In this document: piece by piece, positions 27,145 to 52,879 of the stretch
Layout of the letters: every line of letters starts with the position of its first letter
Numbering within the stretch: the stretch's first letter is position 1
Assembly (NCBI RefSeq): GCF_900129785.1
Contig: NZ_FSRC01000002.1
Location: forward strand, 806,001 to 870,000
Source: Algoriphagus halophilus
GTDB taxonomy: Bacteria > Bacteroidota > Bacteroidia > Cytophagales > Cyclobacteriaceae
Reading direction: 5' to 3'
Length of the DNA: 64,000 bases
The notes under the pieces: generated by a model
Seen by the model: the letters and a program-made list of their open reading frames with translations, nothing else
What the model was told of the DNA's origin: nothing
Database searches by the model: none
Translations under genes and position numbers: made by a program

Positions 27145-27162
27145 ATTGAACATTCATTCAAT
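27145..27162 (-). promoter_or_regulatory. Palindromic operator overlapping the susC -7 box
   Basis: ATTGAACATTCATTCAAT on the plus strand, with 6-bp arms ATTGAA/TTCAAT. It shares ATTGAA and CATTCAAT with the near-perfect site at 28438-28455. On the minus strand the operator begins exactly 4 bases after the first base of the -7 element, the same register as at the metallophosphoesterase and betB promoters. Likely target of the TetR protein encoded at 28536; a repressor here would block polymerase. Confidence 0.78.
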
Positions 27163-27189
27163 ATTAAATATTGCAATTTAAAAATCAAA
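27159..27189 (-). promoter_or_regulatory. Bacteroidota-type promoter of the susC operon
   Basis: On the minus strand: -33 element TTTG (27189-27186), a 19-base spacer, and -7 element TAATATTG (27166-27159; one mismatch to TAnnTTTG). The last three bases of the -7 box are part of the operator. This places the transcript start about 85 bases upstream of the susC ATG. Confidence 0.7.
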
Positions 27190-27371
27190 GCAATTAAATT
27201 TCATTTTTAATTAGTTAATGATAATTTAATACTAGGTCGTAGAAATTAATCCTGAAGAAATGGATCAATAATAAAAAGCTAGAAATTGAAGTTTTTCCAC
27301 AAAAAATTGACCCATTGATTATTTAAATCTGCTTATTTGCAGTTTTTGAATCATTGAATGGAATTATATAG

Positions 27372-27404
27372 AAAAACATAAGCCACCCTTAAATGATGGC
27401 TTAT
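27372..27404 (-). terminator. Terminator after the metallophosphoesterase
   Basis: 8-bp stem ATAAGCCA (27378-27385) / TGGCTTAT (27397-27404), followed on the minus strand by GTTTTTC. It separates this gene from the susC operon, consistent with two promoters sharing one operator type. Confidence 0.75.
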
Positions 27405-27437
27405 TAGATAATTGTCAATCCAGAAAAATATGGTTTT

Positions 27438-28334
27438 TTATCTCAGAGGAAAATATTCATTTTCCACCTGACCATCTTCATATAATTTCAAGATGGCATA
27501 TCCAGGAGGAGTCTCTAAGTAATACTGTTTTCCTGCAGATTCTTTGTCTCCATCCCCCCACCAAAAACCACTCAGAGATCCATTGCAAAAATAGTGTACA
27601 TCATTGTACCAGGTTCTGTCCAACAAATGTTGATGACCACTTAAGCACACTCGAACTTTATCTTTATGTTGATAGAATAATTTTTTTAATTCTTTATGAT
27701 CCTTATGCTGTCCCCCAACCAAAGCATTGGTAATAGAAGTAATTGGAAAGTGAGACATGATCAAAGTCGGAGTATTTGCAGCAAGCTGACTTAGGTCACT
27801 TTCTAACCAGTTCATCTGCACTTCACCTAGGCTGATTCCCTCGTGATTTCCATCCAAAATGATAAAATGCCAACCGTTTTTATCAAAGCTGTAATAAAGG
27901 GATGGCATTCCTAAACGCTCCACTACATAGGGTTTCCCATACATAGGCTCCTGATCCTTATCAGCGACGTCCCACCAAGGATCATGGTTACCAATGCAAC
28001 TGTAGACCTCACTTTCTTTGATTTCATCCCGAAATTGATCCCAAACTTCCCATTGTGCAATAACTCGATCCTTTGTTACTCCTTCATACGAAGCATCATG
28101 AATGCTATCTCCTCCATTTAAGTAAAAATCTGGTTGATGCTTTTTTACAATTTTCAACCAGTCAATGGCTCTAGAAGGGACATCCTCTTCAGGCCGAATA
28201 TGCACATCTGTGATATGGGCTACTGTTAAAACAGGTTTCTTACCCATTTTTTTCTCTTCAGCAGATGAAACCGCCGGTAATCCGATCCCTGCCGATACCA
28301 GTCCAGCATTGGTTAAAAACTTTCTTCTATTCAT
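27438..28334 (-). CDS. Exported calcineurin-type metallophosphoesterase
   Basis: A 298-residue metallophosphoesterase. The leader MNRRKFLTNAG...PAVSSA looks like a Tat-type signal (RRKFL). Metal ligands appear in order: HITDVHI (Asp43, His45), NGGDSIHD (Asp76), GNHD (Asn116-His117), SHFP and GHQH. The family includes glycerophosphodiesterases and phosphatases such as GpdQ/CpdA. Its promoter carries the same operator as susC and betB, so a role in freeing choline or glycerol phosphate from phosphodiesters is likely. Substrate not proven. It is divergent from the tetR gene, with 201 bases between them. Confidence 0.82.
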   Translation of the reverse strand: MNRRKFLTNAGLVSAGIGLPAVSSAEEKKMGKKPVLTVAHITDVHIRPEEDVPSRAIDWLKIVKKHQPDFYLNGGDSIHDASYEGVTKDRVIAQWEVWDQFRDEIKESEVYSCIGNHDPWWDVADKDQEPMYGKPYVVERLGMPSLYYSFDKNGWHFIILDGNHEGISLGEVQMNWLESDLSQLAANTPTLIMSHFPITSITNALVGGQHKDHKELKKLFYQHKDKVRVCLSGHQHLLDRTWYNDVHYFCNGSLSGFWWGDGDKESAGKQYYLETPPGYAILKLYEDGQVENEYFPLR

Positions 28335-28437
28335 ATTCTACTTAAATCAATATTTTCATGTCCATAACAAAACCTCACCGAAAGCCATGAAAATCAGCAT
28401 TTTTTGAATTATTTTTATTTTTAGATCAGCAATTTCT

Positions 28438-28455
28438 ATTGAATGACCATTCAAT
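28438..28455. promoter_or_regulatory. Perfect palindromic operator between metallophosphoesterase and tetR
   Basis: ATTGAATGACCATTCAAT: 8-bp arms with a 2-base centre. Its 16-base core TTGAATGACCATTCAA recurs exactly, in reverse orientation, at 52756-52771 upstream of betB. It sits 81 bases before the tetR ATG and overlaps the -7 box of the divergent metallophosphoesterase, so the TetR protein could repress both itself and the enzyme. Confidence 0.82.
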
Positions 28456-28482
28456 ATTATATATTGTAAAACTCAAAACAAA
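28452..28482 (-). promoter_or_regulatory. Promoter of the metallophosphoesterase
   Basis: Minus strand: TTTG (28482-28479), a 19-base spacer, TAATATTG (28459-28452). Spacing, -7 sequence and operator register are identical to the susC promoter. Confidence 0.7.
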
Positions 28483-28535
28483 AGAATTTACTCTAATTAA
28501 AGAGCACATTAACTTTATTTTAATAATTAATTTAC

Positions 28536-29120
28536 ATGGCAACAAAGGTTTCTGCTGATAGAAAAAGAGAAATAATTGAAGGATTTTATCAGCTTTCCAA
28601 AGAAAATGGAATTGAGAACACATCCATTGCCAAAATCGGAAAACACCTAGGAATGCCTCCTAGTTTGATTATGCATTATTTCCCCACTAGGGACATATTA
28701 ATATCCAATCTCATATCCTTTATCCTAAAGAGATTATTGCAAATTTATACACCTATTATCAAGGAATTGAGGGTTCAAAACTATACTGATCCTCATACAT
28801 TTGTGGAGCGAATGTTTTCTAGAGATTGGAACCTGTTAATTGATGATGGGGTATTTTATAGTTGCTTTAGTTTGATTTTCAGGAATGACACCATTAAGCG
28901 GGAATACCGAAACCTTCATCTCAAACTCAGAGAAAATTTGAAGGAGATTCTTGATCAAGATGAAAAATTGAATAAAAAAGATACTGCACTACTTTCTGAG
29001 CAAATCTTTGTAGTAGTAGAAGGGGCTTACTATTATTTATCCATGATTGATGATCAAGAACTTTATGAGCAAAAAGTGGAGATTTTTAAAAACCAGGTTT
29101 ACGATTTGCTAAGAGGATGA
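28536..29120 (+). CDS. TetR-family regulator, BetI-like candidate
   Basis: A 194-residue regulator. The N-terminal TetR DNA-binding domain covers about residues 8-55 (KREIIEGFYQLSKENG, TSIAKIGKHLGMPPSLIMHYFPTRDIL). The recognition-helix ending IMHYF resembles BetI, which has ISHYF, more than the usual YYHF of TetR proteins. The C-terminal ligand domain is not otherwise diagnostic. A perfect palindrome lies 81 bases upstream of the start, and matching sites lie at susC and betB, pointing to a choline-responsive repressor. Assignment to BetI function is inferred from targets and one motif, so no gene symbol is given. Confidence 0.72.
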   Translation: MATKVSADRKREIIEGFYQLSKENGIENTSIAKIGKHLGMPPSLIMHYFPTRDILISNLISFILKRLLQIYTPIIKELRVQNYTDPHTFVERMFSRDWNLLIDDGVFYSCFSLIFRNDTIKREYRNLHLKLRENLKEILDQDEKLNKKDTALLSEQIFVVVEGAYYYLSMIDDQELYEQKVEIFKNQVYDLLRG

Positions 29121-29141
29121 GTTCCTTCTCACACCCATTTT

Positions 29142-29687
29142 TTAAAACCGTTTCGCAATTCCCACAGCAAATACCGTCACATCATAAATATTTGACCTTA
29201 CATCTTGGGACAAAACAGCGACCATCTCCCAGCCATTTGAAATTTCTACTCCATATTCCAAACTTAAACGGGACACAAAATAATTTTCACCTTTGGCAAA
29301 TTCGCCACCAAAGCCAAGGGAAACATTCCAGTGTTTTCCAAACTTATAGGACCCTGTAATGGTGGGGGCGATAGGTCTTTCACGTTCTACCACTCCATCT
29401 TCTTCTCCAGTTTCTATAAAGTAATTCTCGTTGACAAAATCTGTCTGTATTCCCAAGGCAAACTTTTTTGAAAACCAATAACTGTAATCCAATGCAAAAG
29501 AGGGGACCATAGTAAATTGCTTTTTCCCTTCACTAGATCTACCCTGACCAATTCTGGAATGTCCCAATAATAAGGCAACAACGTGTTTTCCCTCCTCCGT
29601 TTCCTTTTCTATCTCTTCCTGTGCTTTCAATTCCGAAAAAGAACCTAGAATTAAAAGAATGATTGTAAAGTGAAAAATCCTATTCAT
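29142..29687 (-). CDS. Outer-membrane beta-barrel protein (181 aa)
   Basis: Exported barrel-like protein with a signal peptide MNRIFHFTIILLILGSFSELKAQ. Strands such as FALDYSYWFSKKFALGIQTDF and WNVSLGFGGEFAKGENYFVSRLSLEYGVEI alternate polar and aromatic residues, and it ends in GIAKRF with a terminal Phe typical of BAM substrates. The start at 29687 is chosen because the longer frame to 29834 overlaps the upstream gene and lacks a leader. It converges on tetR. Function unknown. Confidence 0.62.
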   Translation of the reverse strand: MNRIFHFTIILLILGSFSELKAQEEIEKETEEGKHVVALLLGHSRIGQGRSSEGKKQFTMVPSFALDYSYWFSKKFALGIQTDFVNENYFIETGEEDGVVERERPIAPTITGSYKFGKHWNVSLGFGGEFAKGENYFVSRLSLEYGVEISNGWEMVAVLSQDVRSNIYDVTVFAVGIAKRF

Positions 29688-29788
29688 GTGGTAATAGTTA
29701 AAAGCTCGCATTAAATTACAAATGAACTGGAAACGAAAAAAGCAGGACCATGATCCTGCTTTATTTTCCTGCGTAAAATAAAGGAATG

Positions 29789-30313
29789 TTAACGTGCATT
29801 TTTTGATAGAGTCATCTCGAAAAACTGATACCAATTCTCTCCTTGCTTGATTTCACCAATTTCAAACCAAGTTCCTTGCTCATCAACTTGAATGATGTAA
29901 CGCATGTTTTCCATAGGATACCAATAGAAATCGCCATTTATGGTTTCTGCTTTGAACTCTCCTTTTCGTCCGTTTTGTAAGTAAGATTGAAAGGAATAGT
30001 GATCTTGTTCTCCTCCAAAGGTGATAATTGCCATCGCATTGTGAATGATTTGATCTTGAGCTTTCCCCTGTCCTTCAATCAAAATTGCCGTTGAGTCCAA
30101 TTTAAACTGAATGTTTTCCGTTTGGGTAAACTCATGCCTTTGCCGATCAGCTCCCATCATCCATCCACTTCCTGACCATGAACCGATTAGGTGCTGAAGT
30201 GAAGTGATCGCTTGTTTTGAAACGAGATCTGTTTCTACGTCTTGAGAAAACGCTTGGTACTGAACTCCTGTAAGAATCCAGATTGCTAACATAATTTTAA
30301 ATAAATTTTTCAT
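29789..30313 (-). CDS. Secreted protein of unknown function, DUF1579-like
   Basis: A 174-residue secreted protein (signal peptide ending QAFSQ, residue 24). The mature part starts with LQHLIGSWSGSGWMMG and continues as a predicted beta barrel (GHMGADRQRHEF-type turn, ILIEGQGKAQ, YSFQSYLQNGRKGEF, MRYIIQVDEQGTWFEIGE). This resembles the heme-binding-like/DUF1579 fold. It is preceded by a palindrome (30324-30338) that matches one upstream of the winged-helix regulator operon, so it is probably part of that regulon. Confidence 0.55.
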   Translation of the reverse strand: MKNLFKIMLAIWILTGVQYQAFSQDVETDLVSKQAITSLQHLIGSWSGSGWMMGADRQRHEFTQTENIQFKLDSTAILIEGQGKAQDQIIHNAMAIITFGGEQDHYSFQSYLQNGRKGEFKAETINGDFYWYPMENMRYIIQVDEQGTWFEIGEIKQGENWYQFFEMTLSKNAR

Positions 30314-30323
30314 TTGTAAACTG

Positions 30324-30338
30324 GTTTATATTATAAAC
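30324..30338. promoter_or_regulatory. Operator-like palindrome upstream of the 29789 gene
   Basis: GTTTATATTATAAAC, 7-bp arms with a single-base centre. It matches 13 of 15 positions with GTTTACTTTATAAAC at 31250-31264, in front of the winged-helix regulator operon. It sits 11 bases before the ATG at 30313. Confidence 0.65.
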
Positions 30339-30355
30339 TAAAATGACAAAAAATT

Positions 30356-30643
30356 TTACTCGATGTAATTCTTTAAATTTTCTACATAGGCTTCAAAAGC
30401 CTTTACCCCTTTGGAAGTGATTTTACAGGTGGTCAAAGGTCTTTTTCCCTTAAATGACTTATGGATTTTGATATAACCCGCCTTTTCGAGTTTATCCAAT
30501 TGAACACTCAGGTTACCCGCAGTCGCTTCCGTTTTTTCCTTTAAGAAAGTAAACTCTGCTTCCTCCAATCCTATTAACAATGACATAACTGCCAGCCTTA
30601 ATTGAGAGTGAAGAAGAGGATCTAGTGGCTTAAACACGTTCAC
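30356..30643 (-). CDS. Winged-helix transcriptional regulator (HTH_34 type)
   Basis: A 95-residue one-domain regulator starting at GTG 30643. The sequence LDPLLHSQLRLAVMSLLI, then ATAGNLSVQLDKLEKAGYIKIHKSFKGKRPLTTCKITSKG in part, is the standard MarR-like winged helix of short regulators paired with membrane proteins. The preceding membrane-protein gene overlaps it by 14 bases, so they are translated from one transcript. Two matching palindromes flank this region and are its likely targets, implying autoregulation. Confidence 0.8.
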   Translation of the reverse strand: MNVFKPLDPLLHSQLRLAVMSLLIGLEEAEFTFLKEKTEATAGNLSVQLDKLEKAGYIKIHKSFKGKRPLTTCKITSKGVKAFEAYVENLKNYIE

Positions 30644-31205
30644 GGTAGTTTTTTTTCAAATAATATCCTGGCACAAGATATCCCAAAATGATGGCAATCC
30701 CTGCTACTAGATACTGATCCATGACCGGTAATGTAAAAGCAATGATGGCTCCCACTCCGAGGATTACTCCACCCAGTTTGACTAAGTTGACACGAATAAG
30801 TGTACCCGTAACAAACATTCCCAAAGCAGCCAAAATTAAAATCACAGGATTCTGATTGAATTCCAAAATATTCATAAATCCCAACACGATGATAATTCCA
30901 ACAAACACAGCTATCCACAATTGGCCAATCACGATGTCCAGATGAGTTTTGACTCTTGCCTTTTTCCCTTTTCGAATACCATATACCGTACTTACAATCG
31001 TCGTTGGAATCACCAATAGCCAAATCAAATAGGAGTTTGCTACCCCCGCCTTCATCAAAGCATAATGCCCTAAATTACAGATGGATATCGTCCACCCCCA
31101 TAGTAGAATCTGAAAACTTCCATCTCCAGCTACTTCCCTTTTCGCTTTTCTGATCATGTCAGTAATCAGCGCTAAAGAATCTTTACTGCTTAACTCTTTT
31201 TCCAT
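30630..31205 (-). CDS. Multi-pass membrane protein coupled to the winged-helix regulator
   Basis: A 191-residue inner-membrane protein with about five to six hydrophobic segments (residues about 29-45, 55-72, 92-112, 115-135, 142-180) and a basic C-terminus (YYLKKNYRERV). Its stop overlaps the regulator start, the usual arrangement for a membrane partner of this regulator class. No transport or enzyme motif is visible. Promoter and operator lie within 70 bases upstream. Confidence 0.65.
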   Translation of the reverse strand: MEKELSSKDSLALITDMIRKAKREVAGDGSFQILLWGWTISICNLGHYALMKAGVANSYLIWLLVIPTTIVSTVYGIRKGKKARVKTHLDIVIGQLWIAVFVGIIIVLGFMNILEFNQNPVILILAALGMFVTGTLIRVNLVKLGGVILGVGAIIAFTLPVMDQYLVAGIAIILGYLVPGYYLKKNYRERV

Positions 31206-31240
31206 AATAGTTTTTTGTTTTCTTGCTATAACGGGATAAA

Positions 31241-31273
31241 TATAAATAGGTTTACTTTATAAACCTATTTATA
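31241..31273. promoter_or_regulatory. Long perfect palindrome upstream of the regulator operon
   Basis: 14-bp arms TATAAATAGGTTTA (31241-31254) / TAAACCTATTTATA (31260-31273) with a 5-base centre. The inner 15 bases match the palindrome at 30324-30338. It lies 36 bases before the ATG at 31205 and is the probable autoregulatory operator. Confidence 0.75.
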
Positions 31274-31347
31274 TACAAATATTTATGAATCAATTGTTTG
31301 AAACGAAGAAAGATGCCTAATTTTAATAATAAAGGAATATACTATTT

Positions 31348-31800
31348 ATGAAAGATATCTTTGATCCAGCTGTCACTGCTGAATTAGTAAACAGGATCAA
31401 CCAATTGACACCTGAAACTCAAGGACTTTGGGGAAAAATGAGTGTAGACCAAATGCTTGCACATTGTAATGTGGCCTACGAAATGGCATTTACTGATAAA
31501 CATGCAAAACCTAATGCGTTTGTTCGGTTTCTCCTTAGGACTTTTGTGAAAAAAGGTGTTGTCAATGAAAAACCCTATCCAAAAAATATCAGAACCGCTC
31601 CTGCTTTTATCATTGCTGACTCTAGAAATTTCAATGAGGAAAAGGAACGTTTGATTGGTTACTTGAATCATACGCTAGAATTGGGAAAGGAACACTTTGA
31701 AGGAAAAGCATCTATTTCCTTTGGGCCAATGTCTGCTCAAGAATGGAATAATCAATTCTATAAACATTTGGATCATCATCTGAATCAATTTGGCGTATGA
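31348..31800 (+). CDS. DUF1569 (DinB-superfamily) protein
   Basis: A 150-residue cytoplasmic protein with the DinB-like metal-site histidines: MLAHCNVAYEM near the start and HLDHHLNQFG at the end. SVDQMLAHC and the closing QFYKHLDHHL are typical of DUF1569. DinB-fold proteins are often thiol-dependent transferases, but no substrate can be read. The downstream VOC gene overlaps it by 4 bases (ATGA), so the two are translationally coupled. Confidence 0.75.
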   Translation: MKDIFDPAVTAELVNRINQLTPETQGLWGKMSVDQMLAHCNVAYEMAFTDKHAKPNAFVRFLLRTFVKKGVVNEKPYPKNIRTAPAFIIADSRNFNEEKERLIGYLNHTLELGKEHFEGKASISFGPMSAQEWNNQFYKHLDHHLNQFGV

Positions 31801-32168
31801 ATCATCCAGCAAAATCAATTCGAACATTTATAGGAGCCAAAAATTTCGAAGAGAGTACGCGATTTTACCAAACCCTAGGTTTTACTGTAAAACCTCTAAG
31901 CAAAGGGTTCTCATTAGTGACTGTTAAGGAAAATATCTGCTTTTATCTACAGGACTATTATTTCAAAGAATGGTGTGAAAACTGCATGATTTTTTTGGAA
32001 GTGGAGCAGCTGGAATCTTATTGGGAAGCTATGAAAGTGCTTGGTCTTCCAGATAAGTTTAAAGGAGTCAAGTTGAGCACCATCAAACATGAAGAATGGG
32101 GAAGTGAGTTTTTTCTTCACGATCCAGCAGGAGTTCTATGGCACTTTGGAGTGTTTAAAAACAACTAA
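31797..32168 (+). CDS. Glyoxalase/bleomycin-resistance (VOC) family protein
   Basis: A 123-residue single VOC domain: IRTFIGAKNFEESTRFYQTLGFTV in the first beta-alpha-beta unit and EFFLHDPAGVLWHFG in the last. VOC proteins use paired metal-binding strands for isomerase, dioxygenase or drug-binding roles. The specific reaction is unknown. Coupling to the DinB-fold neighbour hints at a shared detoxification role. Confidence 0.75.
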   Translation: MNHPAKSIRTFIGAKNFEESTRFYQTLGFTVKPLSKGFSLVTVKENICFYLQDYYFKEWCENCMIFLEVEQLESYWEAMKVLGLPDKFKGVKLSTIKHEEWGSEFFLHDPAGVLWHFGVFKNN

Positions 32169-32233
32169 GGATTACTTTTTTATTTGCCTTAAAATCAGTA
32201 GTTTAGTTCAACTAACACTAAACCAAATTTCTT

Positions 32234-32842
32234 ATGAAAAAATTAACCTCACTATTTTTGATCTTATTTTTTGTAGGGGTTGGAGCAATGGCTCAAAACT
32301 CTAGTGGGCCAGCAGCCATGAATCAAATGTTGTCTAAAAATGTAAAATATCCAGCAGAGGTCAGGGCAGAGAATAAGTCTGGATTTGTCACTTTATCCAT
32401 ATCCATTGATGATTCTGGTTATCCCATGGGAGAGCCTACCGTTTATTCTTCTCATGAAAAATTATCTGAAGAAATACTAAGAACCTATGCACTGGTAAAA
32501 GAAAAATGGGATCCTAGTTTTTTAGATGGAAAAAAGACCGGTGAAGATTACTTGATGACTTTTGAGTTCCGCTTGAGCCAAGGTGGTGAGTTTATAAAAA
32601 ATCCATTGACAAAGTATAAAACTCCTGAAAAAGTGGATCATCTTGCTGCATTAAATAAAGCAATTGAGGAAAACCCCTATTCTTCCAAACTATATCATGA
32701 AAGAGGGGAGTATTACCAAATGATTGGAGAAAACTGGCTTTCAAAATTAGACTTCAATCAAAGTTCATTTCTAAAAAATCAAGAGATAACCCATGTAGTG
32801 ATTGTGGGATATGGAGCATCCAATCATCCAAAATCACTTTAA
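32234..32842 (+). CDS. Periplasmic TonB C-terminal-like protein
   Basis: A 202-residue exported protein, signal peptide ending GAMAQ near residue 21. Residues about 30-115 resemble the TonB C-terminal domain (KNVKYPAEVRAENKSGFVTLSISIDDSGYP). A helical tail follows with a TPR-like repeat (ALNKAIEENPYSSKLYHERGEYYQMIGENW). There is no membrane anchor of the TonB type, so it is probably a soluble relative, not the energy transducer. Followed by a strong terminator. Confidence 0.68.
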   Translation: MKKLTSLFLILFFVGVGAMAQNSSGPAAMNQMLSKNVKYPAEVRAENKSGFVTLSISIDDSGYPMGEPTVYSSHEKLSEEILRTYALVKEKWDPSFLDGKKTGEDYLMTFEFRLSQGGEFIKNPLTKYKTPEKVDHLAALNKAIEENPYSSKLYHERGEYYQMIGENWLSKLDFNQSSFLKNQEITHVVIVGYGASNHPKSL

Positions 32843-32864
32843 AAGATTAGCAATTGTTAAGCCT

Positions 32865-32896
32865 AAGGAGAACTGATTACAGTTCTCCTTTTTTAT
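32865..32896 (+). terminator. Terminator after the TonB-like gene
   Basis: 11-bp stem AAGGAGAACTG (32865-32875) / CAGTTCTCCTT (32880-32890), 4-base loop, T tract to about 32894. It also shows that the open frame starting at 32854 is not the true start of the next gene. Confidence 0.9.
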
Positions 32897-32955
32897 TATC
32901 CATTAGGTTTTGGTTTATGTACTTCAAGGCTACCTTTGTATCAAATTCTATTAAA

Positions 32956-33429
32956 ATGAAGTGCCTTTATTCAATTTTTACTCTCTTTTTTCTAGTCCTT
33001 CTAAGCTCTTGTTCCAATCAGGAAGTAACGAAAAAAGACGTGGTAGAAACAACTGATGATATACAGGAGCAATTACGCGAGGGGTTACCAATTGGAGACA
33101 ACTCCAGAACCTCCTTGGATTGGAATGGGACTTATTCAGGGATCGTACCCTGCGCTGACTGCGAAGGGATAGAAACCACCCTGACACTCAATCAGGATAT
33201 GACCTATTTCATAGTCACCAATTATTTAGGGAGGAATGATGCTTTGGAAGAAACCTTCAACGGAACCTTCAAATGGGATGAAACTGGTTCGAAAATATTC
33301 TTAGAAGGCGTAAAGTATGCTCCAAACCAATATAAAATCGGTGAAAATCAAATTTGGCAATTAGACAAATCAGGCAATATGATTACTGGAGACTTGGCCG
33401 ACCATTACATCCTTTACAAAAAACCTTGA
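32956..33429 (+). CDS. NlpE-like lipoprotein
   Basis: A 157-residue lipoprotein (LLSSC, Cys18) with the NlpE N-terminal signature WNGTYSGIVPCADCEGIETTLTL, including the CxxC pair. NlpE-type proteins sense envelope stress and copper in Proteobacteria; in Bacteroidota the role is not established. The ATG at 32956 is chosen because it begins the lipoprotein signal and lies beyond the preceding terminator. Its stop directly abuts that of the convergent oxyR. Confidence 0.8.
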   Translation: MKCLYSIFTLFFLVLLSSCSNQEVTKKDVVETTDDIQEQLREGLPIGDNSRTSLDWNGTYSGIVPCADCEGIETTLTLNQDMTYFIVTNYLGRNDALEETFNGTFKWDETGSKIFLEGVKYAPNQYKIGENQIWQLDKSGNMITGDLADHYILYKKP

Positions 33430-34362
33430 TTACTTAAACCGAACGATTTTGCCGTGGGATTTGGATGTCATTTTTGCAGGAATAGAATCAGTTATCTCAT
33501 TATATAAGAGCTCTACTAATTTTTGTTTCAAGTAACTCCGATTTAAAATAATACTTACTTCCCTTATTGGTGGTACCCCGGCAAATGGACGAATTCTTGA
33601 TTTTTCCTCTTCAGATAAGTCAAAGGTAGCTAACTCCGGAAGCAAGGTGACCCCTTGATACTTATTAACCATGTTTTTTAAGCCTTCCAAAGATCCACTT
33701 TCATAATGGAAGTTACTGGGCCCACTCAATCTTTGATCACATAGATTGATCACCTGGTCCCTGAAACAGTGACCTTGTTGTAAAATCCACAAGTCTTCTT
33801 GATTAATCATTTCCGGCCTGAATTCTTTTTCTTTCAGTAAAGGATGACCTTTGGATAAGTAAGCATAGAATTTTTCATAAAACATCGGCTTTTCGACCAC
33901 CCCAATTTCATGAAGTGGAGTCACTACAATCCCTAAATCCAACTCGTCATTTTTGAGTTTTCTGACAATTTCTTCTGTGACCATTTCCTGAACTTCCATT
34001 TTCACTTTTGGATACTTTTCAAGAAACTTTCTAATAAATAGGTGAAGTAAATAAGGAGCGAGTGTAGGGATAATTCCCAGCTTAATCACCCCAGAAATAT
34101 CTCCTTTCAATTGAGCTACCAACTCCAAAATCCCTTTGCTTTCAGATACTACTCTTTTGGCTTGGGCAATAATCTGAACTCCAATCTCAGTGGGAATTAC
34201 AGGCATTTTGCTTCTATCAAACAAAATCACCCCTAATTCTCTCTCCAGCTTACTCAACTGTGCACTCAAAGTGGGTTGGGTCACAAAGCAACTTTCAGCT
34301 GCATGCCCAAAATGCCGATGTTTATCCACGGCAATTAAATATTCTAGTTGTTGAATAGTCAT
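33430..34362 (-). CDS. oxyR: Hydrogen-peroxide regulator OxyR
   Basis: A 310-residue LysR-type regulator. Helix-turn-helix at residues about 17-38 (HFGHAAESCFVTQPTLSAQLSKLE). The redox pair is conserved at Cys199 and Cys208 (GHCFRDQVINLC), identical in number and spacing to E. coli OxyR. Oxidation by peroxide would form the disulfide and activate defence genes. It is transcribed away from the Gfo/Idh gene at 34543. The block to the right encodes thioredoxin-fold, OhrR and Ohr proteins, an oxidative-stress neighbourhood. Confidence 0.92.
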   Translation of the reverse strand: MTIQQLEYLIAVDKHRHFGHAAESCFVTQPTLSAQLSKLERELGVILFDRSKMPVIPTEIGVQIIAQAKRVVSESKGILELVAQLKGDISGVIKLGIIPTLAPYLLHLFIRKFLEKYPKVKMEVQEMVTEEIVRKLKNDELDLGIVVTPLHEIGVVEKPMFYEKFYAYLSKGHPLLKEKEFRPEMINQEDLWILQQGHCFRDQVINLCDQRLSGPSNFHYESGSLEGLKNMVNKYQGVTLLPELATFDLSEEEKSRIRPFAGVPPIREVSIILNRSYLKQKLVELLYNEITDSIPAKMTSKSHGKIVRFK

Positions 34363-34542
34363 GAAAGTAGGTTTAGGTTATTAAAAGTAAAGATTTTTCG
34401 AGAACCCTCTAGTAAGCCCAAACAAAGACCCCGGATACCTTTAGTCAAAATAAAGGCTGAAAATTTTACTAAACTTCAGAAAAACAGTAATTTATTTCCT
34501 CTAATTGTGAATAGACAATCAACAAACCCAAAATAAATACAA

Positions 34543-35850: not shown

Positions 35851-35882
35851 TACTAGCATTCAAAACCTCCTTATCCTCTACT

Positions 35883-37106: not shown

Positions 37107-37126
37107 AAAACTTTGGATTAAGTTCT

Positions 37127-37145
37127 TATACAGTTAAATTGTATA
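37127..37145. promoter_or_regulatory. OhrR-type operator upstream of ohrR
   Basis: TATACAGTTAAATTGTATA, an interrupted palindrome 18 bases before the ohrR ATG. The core TACAGTTAAATTGTA differs by one base from the known OhrR box TACAATTAAATTGTA (B. subtilis, from memory), supporting autoregulation of the ohrR-ohr pair. Confidence 0.75.
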
Positions 37146-37163
37146 AAATTTAATTTGTAGAAA

Positions 37164-40596: not shown

Positions 40597-40650
40597 TTCA
40601 GGAACTTATTGCACTTCAATTTCCTTTCGAATACAATCATCCTTGAATAC

Positions 40651-42717: not shown

Positions 42718-42725
42718 TTAAAATG

Positions 42726-42763
42726 AAAAAGCTTCTGGAAGTGATATTTTCCAGAAGCTTTTT
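42726..42763. terminator. Bidirectional terminator after dsbD
   Basis: 15-bp inverted repeat AAAAAGCTTCTGGAA (42726-42740) / TTCCAGAAGCTTTTT (42749-42763). Serves dsbD on the plus strand and the S1/P1 nuclease gene on the minus strand. Confidence 0.92.
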
Positions 42764-42786
42764 CGGCTAAATCTCTTTTTTAGTAC

Positions 42787-43557: not shown

Positions 43558-43615
43558 ACCAATAAATTTAGTCCTAAATCTAAGGGGAAAATAAAAAGAA
43601 GAGGTAAACTGAATA

Positions 43616-45329: not shown

Positions 45330-45340
45330 AATCTGTTTCT

Positions 45341-48300
45341 TTAATCGATAATAATACACTTACCTTCCTGAATATCCTGCTCGACGCTTTTATATTTCAC
45401 ATCTGATTTGGTAGTTCCATTGGTATATTGAACATTCACCCGATCATTTCTTCCATAAGCTTTGTCAGACTTTCTTGGAGCAACTACTTGAGGAGCTGGT
45501 CTTCCTGCACTTGCCGCTGCAGCAGCAGCTCTATTTGCACCTGGATTCAAGGTACTGGAAACTTCTGCTTTGCTAGCTTGTCCCTGTGGCTCTGCCGCTC
45601 CAGGAGGCTGCGCCGCATTCACTTGACTAGGGTCTTGTTTTGGTAAATCCGCTCTTGAAATGAATGAAATCACATCTTCATTCAATTTACCGATGAACCG
45701 CTTGAACATTTCAAATGCTTCAAACTTATAAATCAATAACGGATCTTTTTGCTCATACACTGCATTCTGAACTGACTGCTTCAAGTCATCCATATCTCGC
45801 AGATGCTCTTTCCAGTTTTGATCAATGATCGCCAAGGTCACGTTCTTTTCAATGGATCGGATCAATTCACGACCTTCACTATTGATCATTCCTTCAAGAT
45901 TTACGACTACTCCAATCTGCTTGATGCCATCAGAAATCGGAACCATGATGTCTTTCACGGTAGCTCCTCTTTCTTCCTGAACCTTCTTGAAGATTGGGAG
46001 CGCAGTGCTCATGATCAACTCATTCTTTTTCTGGTAATTATCAAAGGCCGCTTCATACAACTCTTGAGTCAAAGTTGCGGAATCCTTAGATTTCAAATCA
46101 CTTTCAGAAATCTGATAATCCAAGCCTAAAGACGTAAAGACATTCAATCTCAAATCTTCAGGATCACCAGTAGATTTTCCCATTTCGATGTTGCTTTCGC
46201 ATACATCATACATGATATTCAATATATCTAACTCCAGACGGTCTCCTTTTAGTGCATTTCTTCTTCTTTTATACACTACTTCACGCTGTGAGTTCATCAC
46301 ATCATCATACTCTAGCAACCTCTTTCTGGTACCAAAGTTGTTTTCTTCAACTTTCGTTTGAGCACGCTCAATGGATTTGGTAATCATGCTATGTTGAATT
46401 ACCTCTCCTTCTTCAAGCCCCATTCGATCCATTAACTTGGCAATTCGATCCGAGCCAAATAGACGCATTAAGCTATCTTCCAGAGAAACAAAGAATTGAG
46501 AAGAACCCACATCACCTTGACGTCCAGCACGACCTCTCAACTGTCTATCGACCCGTCTGGATTCGTGTCTTTCGGTACCTATAATGGCTAAACCTCCTGC
46601 TTTTTTAGATTCATCCGAAAGTTTAATATCAGTACCACGACCTGCCATGTTGGTAGCAATGGTTACGGTTCCTGCTTGACCCGCAGCAGCAACTACATCT
46701 GCTTCCTTCGCGTGTTGCTTCGCATTCAATACCTGATGAGGTATTTTCTTCAGAGTAAGCATTCTACTTAGCACCTCTGAAATTTCCACTGAAGTTGTAC
46801 CCACCAACACAGGTCTTCCTGCTGCTACCAATTCATTGATTTCATCTACAACCGCATTGAATTTCTCACGGACGGTTTTATAAACTTTATCTTCTCTATC
46901 TGAACGTTGGATTACTCTGTTGGTAGGAATAACTACCACGTCCAATTTATAAATCTCCCAGAATTCCCCAGCTTCAGTTTCTGCTGTACCAGTCATACCA
47001 GCCAACTTATGGTACATTCTGAAATAGTTCTGTAAGGTAATCGTCGCGTAAGTTTGAGTGGCATCCTCCACCTTCACGTTTTCCTTCGCTTCTATCGCCT
47101 GGTGTAAGCCATCGGAATATCTTCTACCCTCCATGACACGACCTGTTTGCTCATCCACGATCTTCACTTTTCCATCCACAATGATGTACTCTGTGTCTCG
47201 TTCAAACATACAATAGGCCTTTAGCAATTGATTTACTGTATGAATACGTTGGGCTTTTACTCCATAGTCTTTGATGACTTCTTCTTTTCGAACCAACTTC
47301 TCTTTATCATCCAAGGAATCATCTTTTTCCAAGTCTGCGATTACTACACCGATATCCGGCAAAATGAAAAACTCTGCATTTTCATTCTTGGTAGTCATCG
47401 TATCTATCCCACGATCCGTCAAATCAACCACATTGGTTTTTTCATCAATCGTAAACAATAATGGCTCATCTGCCTCAGGCATGTTTCGCTTATTGTCCTG
47501 TAGGTAGTAGTTTTCTGTTTTTTGAAGAATTACCCGAATACCTGGCTCAGAAAGGTATTTGATCAATGGCTTGTATTTAGGCATCCCTCTGAAGGCTCTA
47601 AATAATGCCAATCCCCCTTCTTTTTCATTGCCTTCTGCCAATAATTTCTTAGCAGAGGTAAGGTACCCTTGAACTAATTTTCTTTGTTCGTCCACCAAAG
47701 TGGCCACACGAGGTTTCATGTCATCAAACTCATGCACATCGCCTTTTGGTACAGGACCGGAAATAATCAATGGAGTCCTTGCATCATCAATCAATACGGA
47801 ATCGACCTCATCGACCATGGCAAAATGATGCTTGCCTTGAACTAAGTCTCCGCCATCACGAGCCATGTTGTCACGTAAATAGTCAAATCCAAATTCGTTA
47901 TTGGTACCATACACGATATCACATGCATAGGCTTTCTTTCTTCCAGCTGAATTCGGTTGGTATTTATCAATGCAGTCTACAGACAACCCATGGAATTCAA
48001 AAAGTGGAGCATTCCATTCGGAGTCACGTTTCGCCAGATAATCATTGACTGTTACAATGTGAACTCCTCTTCCTGCCAAGGCATTAAGGTACGCAGGAAG
48101 TGTGGAAACCAAGGTTTTACCCTCTCCAGTAGCCATCTCTGCAATTTTACCACTATGTAAAACCATCCCACCGATTAGCTGAACATCGTAGTGGACCATA
48201 TCCCAAACTACTTCGTTACCTGCTGCCAACCAAGTGTTGTGCCAGATGGCATGATCTCCATCGATTTCTACATTTTGCTTGCGCGCAGCCAGTTCACGGT

Positions 48301-48718
48301 CATTTAAGTTGGCTGTAACTTTCAGCTGCTTATTTTCTTTGAATCTTCTTGCGGTCTCTTTCACTACCGCAAACGCCGTAGGCATTACCTCCAATAGCAC
48401 CTCTTCCAAAGATTCATCCCGCTGCTTTTCCAGTTGATCAATTTCGTTGAAAAGTTGATCCTTTTGATGAATTGCATTCGCAGGAAGTTCATTGATTTTA
48501 ATTCTTATCTCTCCAATGCTATCGTCGATTGTTTTGAGTTTAGCATCAATGATACCTTTGATTTCAGCAGTCTTTGCCCGCAACTCATCGTCACTGAGGG
48601 AAGCAAAGCTTTTAAAGATCTTATTGATCTCTTCTACTTTTGGGGTTAATTCTTTAATATCTCTATCGGACTTAGTACCGAATACTTTCGCGAGTCCTTT
48701 GGCAATTAATTCTAACAT
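45341..48718 (-). CDS. secA: Preprotein translocase ATPase SecA
   Basis: A 1125-residue motor of the Sec export pathway. Walker A in MATGEGKTLV, DEVDSVLIDDARTPLIISG, the preprotein cross-linking domain, TNMAGRGTDIKL, and QLRGRAGRQGD are all present. The long size is typical of Bacteroidota SecA. The tail contains a low-complexity Ala/Pro/Gln linker from about residue 1045 (AAAAAASAGRPAPQ) and ends without the Cys-rich zinc SecB-binding motif of E. coli SecA. Essential, housekeeping. Confidence 0.96.
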   Translation of the reverse strand: MLELIAKGLAKVFGTKSDRDIKELTPKVEEINKIFKSFASLSDDELRAKTAEIKGIIDAKLKTIDDSIGEIRIKINELPANAIHQKDQLFNEIDQLEKQRDESLEEVLLEVMPTAFAVVKETARRFKENKQLKVTANLNDRELAARKQNVEIDGDHAIWHNTWLAAGNEVVWDMVHYDVQLIGGMVLHSGKIAEMATGEGKTLVSTLPAYLNALAGRGVHIVTVNDYLAKRDSEWNAPLFEFHGLSVDCIDKYQPNSAGRKKAYACDIVYGTNNEFGFDYLRDNMARDGGDLVQGKHHFAMVDEVDSVLIDDARTPLIISGPVPKGDVHEFDDMKPRVATLVDEQRKLVQGYLTSAKKLLAEGNEKEGGLALFRAFRGMPKYKPLIKYLSEPGIRVILQKTENYYLQDNKRNMPEADEPLLFTIDEKTNVVDLTDRGIDTMTTKNENAEFFILPDIGVVIADLEKDDSLDDKEKLVRKEEVIKDYGVKAQRIHTVNQLLKAYCMFERDTEYIIVDGKVKIVDEQTGRVMEGRRYSDGLHQAIEAKENVKVEDATQTYATITLQNYFRMYHKLAGMTGTAETEAGEFWEIYKLDVVVIPTNRVIQRSDREDKVYKTVREKFNAVVDEINELVAAGRPVLVGTTSVEISEVLSRMLTLKKIPHQVLNAKQHAKEADVVAAAGQAGTVTIATNMAGRGTDIKLSDESKKAGGLAIIGTERHESRRVDRQLRGRAGRQGDVGSSQFFVSLEDSLMRLFGSDRIAKLMDRMGLEEGEVIQHSMITKSIERAQTKVEENNFGTRKRLLEYDDVMNSQREVVYKRRRNALKGDRLELDILNIMYDVCESNIEMGKSTGDPEDLRLNVFTSLGLDYQISESDLKSKDSATLTQELYEAAFDNYQKKNELIMSTALPIFKKVQEERGATVKDIMVPISDGIKQIGVVVNLEGMINSEGRELIRSIEKNVTLAIIDQNWKEHLRDMDDLKQSVQNAVYEQKDPLLIYKFEAFEMFKRFIGKLNEDVISFISRADLPKQDPSQVNAAQPPGAAEPQGQASKAEVSSTLNPGANRAAAAAASAGRPAPQVVAPRKSDKAYGRNDRVNVQYTNGTTKSDVKYKSVEQDIQEGKCIIID

Positions 48719-48816
48719 GTCGAGTGAATGTGATTCTCAAATCGGGCTCTAAAATTAAGCCCTTTTTATTACAATTGATAATGATATCCAGTTAGTACTG
48801 AATGATCCTTTTTCTC

Positions 48817-49590
48817 CTAAATTTTAATTGTTCCGCTAAACACTTGCTCTGCAGGACCGATTAACCAAATATCGGAAAATCCTCCTGATGGCTTTGAGGT
48901 AAATTTAACGGATAACTTCCCACCAAGGGTATTAATTTTTATTTCAGCGGCTGGAAGATCCTTTCCATAGACCAACGCAGCAGCAGTCACTCCAGTCCCG
49001 CAAGAAAGGGTTTCATTTTCTACACCCCGTTCATAGGTTCTTACGAATATCTCATCTTCGGAAATTGCCTCCACAAAGTTGACATTGGTACCTCCGGGAG
49101 CATAAGTGGAACTGTATCTCACTTCTTTACCTTCAGCAAAAACTGGATAATCAGAAACCGCTTTTACTAAACGAATATGATGAGGGGAACCGGTATTGAC
49201 GAAATAATCCTGCTCTTTGGATTCAATGCCGCTCACATCTCCCATTAATAATTGGACTAAACCGTCTTTGATTACCGCATCATGGGCACCATCAATCGCA
49301 AGAAAATGAGTCTTGGAGGTTACGATTCCCAAAAATGCAGAAAAAGCAACAGCACAACGTGCTCCATTCCCACACATACTCTGCGACCCATCGGCATTGA
49401 AATAAATCATTTCAAAATCATAATCTGGATGATTCCGAATCAAAATCAATCCATCGGCTCCTATTCCAAACTTACGGTCGCATAACTTTGAAACCAGCTC
49501 CAAATCAGAAACATCAAATGACTCAGAACGATCATCGATCATTACAAAATCATTTCCTGTTCCTTGATATTTATAAAAGGTAATTTCCAT
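48817..49590 (-). CDS. dapF: Diaminopimelate epimerase DapF
   Basis: A 257-residue epimerase converting LL- to meso-diaminopimelate for lysine and peptidoglycan. [13 protein letters not shown], the catalytic-cysteine blocks MCGNGARC and [11 protein letters not shown], and TYERGVE are conserved. It is followed by secA on the same strand, 98 bases away. Standard length. Confidence 0.95.
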
Positions 49591-49669
49591 GGAATTATAA
49601 TTCTAGCAACTTGGTTCAAAAATTCAACCAACTGCCATATAGATTGCAAACTTAATCAACTTGTCACAA

Positions 49670-49690
49670 AATCAGACTTATTGTCTGATT
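49670..49690. other. Short palindrome upstream of dapF
   Basis: 8-bp arms AATCAGAC (49670-49677) / GTCTGATT (49683-49690), 5-base centre, in the 261-base divergent region between dapF and the pyrophosphohydrolase gene. Could be an operator or a hairpin; no partner copy was noticed. Confidence 0.4.
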
Positions 49691-49851
49691 CTCAATTTCA
49701 AAAACGGCAGAAATAGCACTAGTACACAGCCCATTTCGAATATATAAGGGCTATTTCCATGCAGTTTATCTATTTGCAGGAATAAAAGCTTTTTCTAAGA
49801 CCGGTAATTCCAGTCTTTTTCATTTATTTCGAACAATCATTAAAATAAAAC

Positions 49852-50319
49852 ATGCAAGATCCAAAGTCACTTACCTCAGTCGCTTTATTTCACGAGACAT
49901 TCAAACATCCAGTTTTAGCTGAACCTACCATTCCTTCCGATACACGCTGTAATCTCCGTGTTTCCTTATTGGCAGAAGAGCTAAGAGAATTGGAAGAAGC
50001 GATTGAAAACAAAGACCTGGTTGAAATTGCCGATGCTCTTTGTGATTTACAATACGTATTATCCGGTGCCATCCTAGAGTTTGGGTTAGGTGAAAAATTC
50101 AAAACCCTATTTGATGAGGTTCAGCGCTCCAATATGAGTAAAGCTTGTAAATCAGAAGAAGAAGCGAAAGCTACCGTCGCACATTATGAAGCAAAGGGAA
50201 CTCCTTGCTTTTATGAAAAAGAAGGGGATTTGTATCTAGTGTTCAGAGAAGGGGATCATAAAACCCTCAAATCCGTCAACTATTCTCCTGCAGACTTAGC
50301 CGGTATCCTCAATAAATAA
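49852..50319 (+). CDS. Nucleotide pyrophosphohydrolase-like protein (MazG/PRA-PH superfamily)
   Basis: A 155-residue cytoplasmic protein of the all-alpha NTP pyrophosphatase superfamily. The metal-binding pattern is LAEELRELEEAIENKDLVEIADALCDLQYV. The helices around residues 35-80 are the core; the C-terminal 60 residues contain HYEAKGTPCFYEKEGD, a segment shared by related Bacteroidota proteins. It probably hydrolyses a non-canonical or modified nucleoside triphosphate. Its stop is one base from the convergent mscS-like gene. Confidence 0.8.
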   Translation: MQDPKSLTSVALFHETFKHPVLAEPTIPSDTRCNLRVSLLAEELRELEEAIENKDLVEIADALCDLQYVLSGAILEFGLGEKFKTLFDEVQRSNMSKACKSEEEAKATVAHYEAKGTPCFYEKEGDLYLVFREGDHKTLKSVNYSPADLAGILNK

Positions 50320-50320
50320 A

Positions 50321-51172
50321 TTAAGAAGTCTTCAGGCTTTTGCCCTGATGATTTTTCAACTCAATGATCTTGGCCGGCATATTATAGCCGGCCTTTTCTA
50401 ATACTGTCAATACCTTAATGATTGCATTACTTTTTACTACTGCATCAGAAATAGAACGCTCAAAGGTATCTACCCAAAATGTTACTTGGATATTTAAGGT
50501 ACTTTCTGCTAAATCAACCACCCAAACATTTGGGGATTTAACTCCCTGCAAGACACCTGGAACAAGGATAATGGAAGATTGAATCAATTCAACTGCCCCT
50601 TGATAATCGGATCCATAATCCAGACCAATGATAAAATCATATCGAAGGAATCCATCAATGGTAAAATTGGTCAATGGGTTTTTTAGAATGACTCCATTCG
50701 GAATAAATACATCTTTTCCATCTGCCGTTTTAATTTGAGTATCTCTCAGGTTAAGGGTAAGTACCTGTCCCCTCATCCCAATGATATCTACCAAATCGCC
50801 CACGCGAAAAGGTCTTTTGAAGGCGAGTATAATCCCAGCTAAAAAATTTTCCCCAATATCTTTCAAGGCAAAGCCAATGATAAAAGCGGAAATTCCTGCT
50901 CCTGCCAATAAGCCTGAGACCACTCCGGATAAACCGATGATTCTAAGGACGATCAACAGACCTGCCAAGATAACCAAAGCACTGGCAATCCCAGCAAGAA
51001 AATTTGCCAATAAATCATCGTCCATTCGCTTAATTAAACGAACCCTAAGAAAGGTTTTAGATTTTCTAGCGAAAAAAACAAATAATAAAAAGACGCCTAA
51101 AGCCACACCAGCAACGAGCAATCCGTTTTTGAGGGTAGGCCAATCAGTAGCAAAAAATTCCAATTCCTTCAT
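50321..51172 (-). CDS. Small-conductance mechanosensitive channel (MscS family)
   Basis: A 283-residue membrane channel. Three helices precede the pore-lining TM3 (SGVVSGLLAGAGISAFIIGFALKDIGENFLAGI). The cytoplasmic beta domain starts with RPFRVGDLVDIIGMRGQV and contains FIPNGVILKNPLTN. ATG 51172 is chosen; 51187 is a TTG. It releases osmolytes on hypo-osmotic shock. It lies just downstream of the glycine-betaine gene betB on the same strand, a plausible osmotic pairing, though an independent transcript is possible. Confidence 0.87.
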   Translation of the reverse strand: MKELEFFATDWPTLKNGLLVAGVALGVFLLFVFFARKSKTFLRVRLIKRMDDDLLANFLAGIASALVILAGLLIVLRIIGLSGVVSGLLAGAGISAFIIGFALKDIGENFLAGIILAFKRPFRVGDLVDIIGMRGQVLTLNLRDTQIKTADGKDVFIPNGVILKNPLTNFTIDGFLRYDFIIGLDYGSDYQGAVELIQSSIILVPGVLQGVKSPNVWVVDLAESTLNIQVTFWVDTFERSISDAVVKSNAIIKVLTVLEKAGYNMPAKIIELKNHQGKSLKTS

Positions 51173-51249
51173 TGCTGTAAAATACAAAAAGTCATTCAGA
51201 TTAGCGTTTTCTGCTCAATCAATGTAGAAATAAGGCGGCCTTTCTTGTA

Positions 51250-52701
51250 TTAAAAGGGATTACCAAGGTCTTTCATTGCCACATACACGGTTTTCAATTG
51301 GGAATAATGCTCGATGGCTGCCAAGCCATTTTCCCTTCCAATCCCAGATTGTTTATAGCCCCCAAATGGGATTTCAACAGGATTGATATTGTAAGTATTA
51401 ATCCAACACATCCCTGCTTGAAGTCCTGCTACCATACGGTGGGCTCTTCGCAAATCATTGGTATAGACGCCTGCAGCTAAACCAAACTCGGTATCATTGG
51501 CACGTTGTAAAACCTCTGACTCCTCTTTGAAAGTCAAGATAGTCATGACTGGACCAAAAATTTCCTCTTGAACGATCTCGCAATCATCCACTTTGCTTTC
51601 AAAAATGGTAGGTTCTATGAAATAACCTCCTTCACAACCTAGAACCTTGATTTGCTTTCCACCATAGATTAATTCCGCTCCTTGCTTTTTGCCCAAATCA
51701 ATGTAGCCCATGACTTTTTCAAAATGGGTTTTATTGATTAGTGCACCTATTTGGGTTTCTGGGTCTGATGGGTTCCCCACTTTGAGCTGTTTCGCCTTTT
51801 CGACAAGGGTCGCTATAAATTTTTCGCGGATAGTTTCATGCACAAAAACGCGAGTTCCATTGCTGCATATTTCTCCTTGAGTGTAAAAATTGCCAAGCAT
51901 GGCTCCGTTTACCGCTTCATCAATATCGGCATCTTCAAAAATAATTATGGGTGATTTACCTCCTAATTCCAAGGTAACATGCTTCAAGGTAGCAGCAGAA
52001 GCTGCCATGACCTTTTTACCCGTTCCTACTTCTCCGGTAATAGAAACCTTGGCAATTGCTGGATGGGCAGTCATCATTTGACCTACCTCTCCATCGCCTT
52101 GGATCACGTTGAAAACTCCATCTGGCATTCCTGCTTCTTTGAAAACATCTCCCAATAGATAAGCAGATAACGGAGTCAGTTCAGCAGGTTTAAAAATCAT
52201 AACGTTCCCACAAGCTAAAGCAGGTGCTGCTTTCCAGCAAGCGATTTGGATAGGATAGTTCCATGCTCCAATACCGGCACAAATCCCCAACGGTTCTCTT
52301 TTGGTGTAGGCAAAATCTCCTCCCAATTCAAAATGCTCTCCATGTAAAGTAGGCGCTAACCCTGCATAATATTCCAAACAATCTGCTCCGGAAATTACAT
52401 CTACCGCCACTGCTTCTTTAAGGGGTTTACCAGAATCCTGAGATTCCAACAGAGCTAATTCCTCATTTTTCTCACGTAACAAGGCAGAAGCTTTATGTAA
52501 AATTCTCCCTCTCTCAGTGGGAGACATGGCAGACCATACTTTGAAACCTCTTTTCGCGGACTCGATTGCTTTTTCAAAATCTTCCAAAGAAGCACTGGTG
52601 ACTTGATGGGTTTTTTGACCGGTGGCAGGATTGAAGTTATCAAAGCTCTTACCTGTTCCGTTGACTGACTTATTATCTATATATAATGGGATGGTTTGCA
52701 T
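51250..52701 (-). CDS. betB: Betaine-aldehyde dehydrogenase
   Basis: A 483-residue NAD(P)-dependent aldehyde dehydrogenase oxidising betaine aldehyde to glycine betaine. Catalytic Glu245 (ELGGKSP) and Cys279 (GEICSNGTRVFV). LEYYAGLAP, YTKREPLGICAGIGAWNYPIQI and CWINTYNINPVEIPFGGYKQSGIGRENG run parallel to E. coli BetB over the full length. ATG 52701 matches the family start; the longer frame from 52767 would begin inside the operator. A Bacteroidota promoter and a palindrome identical to that near tetR lie upstream. It is unlinked (about 31 kb) to betA. Confidence 0.88.
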   Translation of the reverse strand: MQTIPLYIDNKSVNGTGKSFDNFNPATGQKTHQVTSASLEDFEKAIESAKRGFKVWSAMSPTERGRILHKASALLREKNEELALLESQDSGKPLKEAVAVDVISGADCLEYYAGLAPTLHGEHFELGGDFAYTKREPLGICAGIGAWNYPIQIACWKAAPALACGNVMIFKPAELTPLSAYLLGDVFKEAGMPDGVFNVIQGDGEVGQMMTAHPAIAKVSITGEVGTGKKVMAASAATLKHVTLELGGKSPIIIFEDADIDEAVNGAMLGNFYTQGEICSNGTRVFVHETIREKFIATLVEKAKQLKVGNPSDPETQIGALINKTHFEKVMGYIDLGKKQGAELIYGGKQIKVLGCEGGYFIEPTIFESKVDDCEIVQEEIFGPVMTILTFKEESEVLQRANDTEFGLAAGVYTNDLRRAHRMVAGLQAGMCWINTYNINPVEIPFGGYKQSGIGRENGLAAIEHYSQLKTVYVAMKDLGNPF

Positions 52702-52755
52702 TTTTGGAGATTTAATGGCCTTTTGGGATCGTTTTTCGTGAAACAAAGGTAAAAG

Positions 52756-52771
52756 TTGAATGGTCATTCAA
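52756..52771. promoter_or_regulatory. Palindromic operator upstream of betB
   Basis: TTGAATGGTCATTCAA, 7-bp arms and a 2-base centre. It is the exact reverse complement of the core of the site at 28439-28454. It covers the end of the -7 box and the expected transcription start, a repressing position, 55 bases upstream of the ATG. Confidence 0.85.
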
Positions 52772-52800
52772 ATTTATAGGTCTTATCATCCTGACCCAAA
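52769..52800 (-). promoter_or_regulatory. Bacteroidota-type promoter of betB
   Basis: Minus strand: -33 TTTG (52800-52797), a 20-base spacer, -7 TAAATTTG (52776-52769), a full match to TAnnTTTG. The operator shares its first bases with the end of the -7 box, as at susC and the metallophosphoesterase. Confidence 0.78.
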
Positions 52801-52878: not shown

Positions 52879-52879
52879 G

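Follow-up and report, generated by a model that had tools for sequence, protein, structure and literature searches.

What regulator, if any, connects the genes that stand behind one recurrent palindrome in Algoriphagus halophilus, and what would those genes achieve together? The 64,000-nt stretch of contig NZ_FSRC01000002.1 analysed here (the window), part of a 4.98 Mb assembly of 8 contigs, carries the palindrome between divergent metallophosphoesterase and tetR genes, ahead of a susC gene and ahead of betB. We consider it probable that all three palindromes serve as operators for the TetR-family regulator encoded at 28536–29120 (+; TetR_C_37 and TetR_N), the presumed binder of each, and that this protein would control a path from phosphodiester uptake through choline oxidation. 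Comparison of sequences carries the linkage of operator and TetR, the confinement of the operator to these promoters, its overlap with them and the gene content.

Operators, promoters and the adjacent TetR

The operator between the divergent genes has the exact sequence ATTGAATGACCATTCAAT (28438–28455), the one ahead of susC is a degenerate copy, ATTGAACATTCATTCAAT (27145–27162), and the one ahead of betB (52755–52772) reads TTTGAATGACCATTCAAC on the betB strand. The initial annotation had reported the exact core TTGAATGACCATTCAA at 28439–28454 (+) and 52756–52771 (−) together with the degenerate copy, and we recovered all three. Its description of promoter boxes on the minus strand also agrees with what we find, and the boxes are of Bacteroidota type: TTTG (27189–27186), 19 bp and TAATATTG (27166–27159) for susC (27159–27189); TTTG (28482–28479), 19 bp and TAATATTG (28459–28452) for the metallophosphoesterase gene (28452–28482); and TTTG (52800–52797), 20 bp and TAAATTTG (52776–52769) for betB (52769–52800). 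At each promoter the operator starts 4 bases past the first base of the −7 box, as had been claimed, and this overlap implies repression. The metallophosphoesterase boxes are a consensus match only, some relatives having no such TTTG; the −7 box of betB is TAAATTTG or TAACTTTG in all six operator-bearing genomes, A. halophilus included. By contrast, the equal gaps before tetR and susC (80 bases, counted from the 18-mer), which the same annotation had pointed out, are a coincidence: 14 of 20 relatives' loci have exactly 80 bases before tetR, but the distance to susC differs from locus to locus (roughly 68–85 in most). The long open reading frame of betB starts at 52767, overlapping the operator; the start common to relatives is 52701. 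A scan of the sigma-70 type found promoter hits no more numerous than in shuffled sequence.

Several lines of evidence connect these sites with the adjacent TetR. First, the motif is restricted. The whole genome contains only two perfect instances of the core class TTGAAYGNNCRTTCAA, both inside the window. A genome-wide search with the 18-bp pattern, allowing up to two mismatches, gave two perfect places (again both here), a single one-mismatch place at another tetR, which is AcrR-like and accompanied by a resistance-nodulation-division (RND) efflux operon, and two-mismatch places that include betB. When the sites of this list were ranked by matrix, tetR/metallophosphoesterase (27.2), susC (23.1), betB (20.7) and the efflux tetR (20.2) came first and the rest scored 18.0 or less. 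Context was read for 25 loci, the remainder being scored only, and 19 of the 21 other sites with context lie inside genes. A motif scattered over many unrelated promoters had been named beforehand as the outcome that would speak against a regulon; the search instead places the three sites of the window and the efflux tetR at the top, and most of the others with context are intragenic. The matrix was derived from Algoriphagus sites only and is partly circular inside the genus, though not outside it.

Second, the operator accompanies the TetR from genome to genome. The nearest named TetR, from A. lutimaris, is 99% identical. Among 72 genomes of the genus, 19 (A. halophilus included) encode the TetR with at least 67% identity and a further 3 with 41–42%, with seven weak partial matches (E 7e-6 to 1e-3) excluded. 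The perfect 18-mer, tallied by eye from the search rows, is present in 21 of these 22 genomes versus 2 of the 50 that do not have the TetR (Fisher P 7e-15, relatedness ignored); one of the two is a fragmented assembly with susC and its operator, and in the other the 18-mer belongs to an efflux-pump tetR. Every one of the seven genomes with the exact core TTGAATGRYCATTCAA encodes the TetR, and the reversed pattern occurs in none of the 72. Six of the seven have exactly two copies, before tetR and before betB; the seventh, G042, has one, before tetR. In the relatives' loci that were fetched (20 of 21 wanted, G045 being read from the shorter locus L033 instead), a site with no more than two mismatches lies 5′ of tetR in 20 of 20, and a perfect 18-mer precedes susC in all 17 that have susC.

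The same holds for a wider set of 80 Bacteroidota loci, out of 104 confirmed, from Algoriphagus, Echinicola, Cyclobacterium, Dyadobacter, Parapedobacter, Sphingobacterium, Cellulophaga and other genera, in which TetR identity reaches down to 35%. The site within about 400 bp 5′ of tetR ranks best in 69 loci and second in 9 (78/80). Among the 59 loci from other genera, as assigned by record title, it ranks first in 53, and a downstream control window does so in none of the 59; median scores are 21.2 and −3.1, respectively. These comparisons strongly support the neighbouring TetR as the regulator to which the operator belongs, in a link that appears to extend far past the genus.

Third, the operators are conserved within changing surroundings. 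Across 18 promoters of the genus, 16 of the 18 positions of the susC operator are invariant, and TATTTAATATTGAATGAATGTTCAAT, the operator with its preceding box, is nearly so; the flanks average 57–76%, the upstream flank including the promoter. The tetR/metallophosphoesterase operator is looser, with 10 of 18 positions invariant in 19 rows and a mean of 88% versus 54–66% in the flanks. At betB the operator is identical in 6 of 11 betB loci examined, with flanks 64–72% conserved, in rows that were picked for bearing the exact site; the other five contain no near-miss operator (best scores 5.1 or less). Promoter register could be scored in 73 of the 80 loci. The TTTG/TA pair stands in register in 20 of them versus 0–1 at shifted registers, and in the rows printed each of the 20 comes from Algoriphagus or Echinicola, which makes the exact register a feature of a clade rather than a phylum-wide rule.

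Some observations weigh against this account. Neither half of the promoter signal is informative singly: of the 73 loci, 30 have TA in register and 34 have it at shift −4, and TTTG by itself also scores 20 at shift −1, so that the pair alone stands out. The distant TetR of G056 has only a two-mismatch site, and the tetR sites of G015 and G020 likewise carry two mismatches. Two loci, L123 and L132, fail the upstream-site test, the strong site of L132 preceding susC. The betB gene of G047 is without the operator, in an assembly of about 510 contigs where tetR was not found, and the perfect 18-mer of G029 sits in a coding region.

A phosphoesterase core with choline genes attached

On the minus strand of the window lie, in order, genes for a SusC/RagA TonB-dependent transporter (23825–27064; TIGR04056, 817 bits), a SusD-family lipoprotein (22016–23806; PF07980), an alkaline-phosphatase-superfamily phosphodiesterase of the nucleotide pyrophosphatase/ENPP type (20709–21950; PF01663) and choline dehydrogenase, betA (18973–20652; TIGR01810, 825 bits, cut-off 732), the final gene of the series. 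We infer that susC to betA are co-transcribed. The adjacent SusC/RagA and SusD genes, matching TIGR04056 and PF07980, identify a SusCD outer-membrane uptake system. A GC-rich hairpin at 21973–21994, between susD and the phosphodiesterase gene, is a possible attenuator inside the operon. Upstream of susC and divergent from tetR is the gene for a calcineurin-like metallophosphoesterase (27438–28334, −; PF00149), the N terminus of which looks, by eye, to be of the twin-arginine type. A terminator-like hairpin 3′ of this gene (27378–27404, −), a pattern match from a scan that as a whole gave no clear excess over shuffles, suggests that its transcript is probably separate from that of susC, which fits the separate operators. 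Both phosphoesterases are named from family matches, and a comparison of their profiles with each other found nothing. The betaine-aldehyde dehydrogenase gene, betB (51250–52701, −; NF009725, 761 bits, cut-off 593), is 24 kb off; genes for tRNA-Leu (taa) and tRNA-Gly (gcc), at 52879–53103, stand directly upstream of its operator.

Ligand-driven induction is typical of TetR proteins, and from the arrangement above we infer TetR binding, repression, autoregulation, a ligand and enzyme specificities as follows. At the susC, metallophosphoesterase and betB promoters, a ligand-free TetR dimer would cover the −7 box together with the start region and so block each promoter, and would also sit 80 bp ahead of its own gene, a position suggestive of autoregulation, although no tetR promoter was identified. 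As a substrate-derived compound builds up, TetR would release the operators. SusCD would then import a phosphodiester, most likely a choline-containing lipid headgroup (glycerophosphocholine, for example, or an ester of phosphocholine), which the phosphodiesterase and metallophosphoesterase would cleave, and BetA and BetB would oxidise the freed choline to glycine betaine.

The part of this system that persists across genomes is its phosphoesterase core. Of the 80 loci, 73 have a phosphoesterase gene at most 10 kb 5′ of tetR (clusters were named from representatives, and operon maps drawn for 31 loci). Cyclobacterium has one operator in the interval from tetR to susC, which in most Algoriphagus loci also holds the metallophosphoesterase gene and has two operators. 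In L100, L092, L093 and L095 (Algoriphagus, Echinicola) the metallophosphoesterase gene is absent or susC and tetR are separated by other genes, layouts that possibly record insertion or loss. The conserved core is thus presumably TetR with a divergent SusC–SusD–phosphoesterase operon, for phosphodiester scavenging. The initial annotation had called the three promoters a choline regulon. Its claim of one TetR operator at three promoters is strongly supported by footprinting and co-occurrence, but the choline label fits this lineage only, since the SusCD–phosphoesterase operon is what stays with TetR and operator. From these comparisons we conclude that the ancestral unit would have scavenged phosphodiesters, the choline product being wired in later, in this lineage.

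The choline genes form a coherent addition. The combination of betA at the locus, an adjoining BCCT-family transporter gene and the betB operator is present in 6 of the 19 genomes of the genus that encode a close orthologue of the TetR, and betA at the operon end and the betB operator coincide in the same six genomes (6/6). A seventh, G010, has its close betA orthologue elsewhere, and in G048 and G071 the betA match runs through one TAA that, judging by length, is probably the gene's own end. The betB operator is identical in the six genomes, although three of them have betB 24–28 kb away from the tetR operator and the other three 178–236 kb away. It occurs in 0 of 5 other betB genomes (Fisher P 0.002), but was probably gained once. 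The betA gene, which the initial annotation did not mention, is the strongest choline link apart from betB. Both enzymes of the choline-to-glycine betaine pathway pass their cut-offs (TIGR01810, NF009725), with betB slightly below that of TIGR01804 (651 bits, cut-off 669).

The BCCT gene (17471–18928, +; PF02028), convergent with betA, is linked by gene content. Its product passes the general model TIGR00842 (492 bits, cut-off 408) and fails the BetT model NF007399 (496, cut-off 695) and the glycine betaine BCCT model (555, cut-off 650). A candidate operator ahead of it (17427–17444, score 8.9) was rejected, as nothing above 2.5 lies within 300 bp upstream in 5 gene-bearing relatives; a site at 18062 (score 16.9) falls in the BCCT coding region. 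The frame seems by eye to extend 5′ of the listed TTG start (17350–17471), and that start is in doubt because the DNA upstream of it looks alike among relatives.

It is quite possible, though not the explanation we favour, that the same TetR regulon serves phosphodiesters generally, for phosphorus or carbon scavenging from substrates such as glycerophosphoinositol or nucleic-acid fragments, with choline genes secondary in one lineage and a ligand that is not choline-like. TetR, SusCD and varied phosphoesterases are indeed the core; only 5 of the 80 loci have a relative of the window's betA in the operon as walked; and the enzyme sets differ by genus (ENPP-like, calcineurin-like, or of the endonuclease/exonuclease/phosphatase type). 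Yet betA was taken into the operon and betB, whose promoter is often far away, was brought in by an operator there, and two other loci encode a phosphocholine-specific phospholipase C (TIGR03396, 744 and 785 bits, cut-off 580). These genes (L124:1823–4342, Arachidicoccus; L134:2713–5004, bacterium A37T11) are third in SusCD operons divergent from a TetR of the same type, where the phospholipase replaces the phosphodiesterase, which points toward choline headgroups. A choline-type headgroup remains, by gene content, the likely substrate in our reading of the A. halophilus locus.

A broader proposal, which we advance tentatively and on balance doubt, is that a Bacteroidota-wide TetR family senses choline or a choline phosphodiester and governs SusCD systems for phospholipid headgroups, one Algoriphagus lineage having rewired a complete route from phospholipid to glycine betaine via the betB operator.

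Possible other regulators for the same sites

The sites might instead belong to an unlinked TetR-type regulator, such as that of the efflux tetR after G000:C1:1069308, or be shared by both proteins; we judge this improbable. Its basis is ATTGAACGTTCATTCAGT (G000:C1:1069291–1069308, L167), 2 bp ahead of the efflux tetR and one mismatch from the pattern. That look-alike is, however, also present in genomes without the window-type TetR (such as G008 and G069), which have no other site with one mismatch or fewer, and perfect 18-mers accompany the window-type TetR in nearly all of the genomes that encode it (21/22). The repetition of ATTGAACGTTCATTCAGT in many Algoriphagus genomes means that two TetR proteins may share look-alike operators. 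At L167 the AcrR-like efflux tetR is followed, by eye, by TolC-, membrane-fusion- and RND-like genes.

That the TetR of the window is a true BetI orthologue running a classical bet operon is very improbable. The protein is a TetR family member (PF00440, 26.2 bits, cut-off 24; PF18665, 139 bits, cut-off 27) and its best NCBIfam matches are BetI models, but these reach only 35.0 bits (NF001978, cut-off 118) and 32.7 bits (TIGR03384, cut-off 201), for which we rejected BetI membership, and its conserved partners are SusCD and phosphoesterases. Chance or mobile repeats without a regulatory role, for which the AT-rich setting and nothing further speaks, can be dismissed, as the operator positions are conserved while their flanks diverge and the sites top the genome-wide list.

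Significance and relation to known systems

SusCD systems are best known for glycans. A conserved TetR family, defined by its operator and tied to SusCD and phosphoesterases, would help to predict which of these systems act on phosphodiesters or phospholipids and would offer a ready way to test what induces them. The betB promoter shows cleanly how a regulon can grow: an operator, the same in all six genomes although its surroundings have changed, has apparently recruited a gene that stands apart. Glycine betaine is a protective solute. Should the substrate prove to be a choline lipid headgroup, lipid turnover would be tied to osmoprotection in these bacteria; if the Bacteroidota-wide choline-sensing proposal is true, membrane debris of other cells would be turned into an osmoprotectant. 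Among the matches listed in the open-access literature, none reports a TetR-controlled SusCD regulon for phosphodiesters, phospholipids or choline in Bacteroidota.

ENPP6 and ENPP7 are choline phosphodiesterases of animals. The window phosphodiesterase matches ENPP7, ENPP5 and ENPP6 chains by profile, and its AlphaFold2 model (pLDDT 89) shares the ENPP7 fold. The sequence match spans about 70 residues, and bacterial nucleotide pyrophosphatases/phosphodiesterases (NPP) and phosphatases match as well as the ENPPs, so that it does not settle the substrate. The predicted fold is likewise common to phosphatases and ENPPs and does not separate specificities; ENPP6 is absent among the best 50 fold matches listed, though its sequence matched the profile.

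BetI regulons unite a TetR-family repressor with bet genes. The Proteobacterial bet regulon resembles the system proposed here in its TetR-family repressor and in betA and betB as presumed targets, and also in having a similar-looking palindrome, the half-sites here looking like BetI sites. It differs in that the core here is SusCD with phosphoesterases, betB is joined through an operator at a separate promoter and the BCCT gene has no operator. Polysaccharide utilisation loci likewise combine a SusC/SusD pair with co-encoded degradative enzymes, but in the locus described here phosphoesterases replace glycoside hydrolases and a TetR with its operator is present; SusCD systems are usually under SusR-like, hybrid two-component or ECF/anti-sigma control.

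A close likeness in gene content is with the phosphate utilisation system (PUS) loci, or PusCD, of Flavobacterium, in which SusCD is combined with periplasmic phosphodiesterases or phosphatases and which are predicted to scavenge phosphodiesters, for example lipid headgroups and nucleic acids (PMC8115612). The A. halophilus locus has the same pairing of SusCD with phosphoesterases. The words 'tetr' and 'choline' do not occur in the main text of that paper. PUS loci are induced by phosphate depletion, and the clusters tabulated there carry ECF sigma or FecR-like regulators (PMC8115612); as far as that account goes, the present locus differs in its divergent TetR and conserved operator, which suggest induction by substrate, and in the choline oxidation attached to it.

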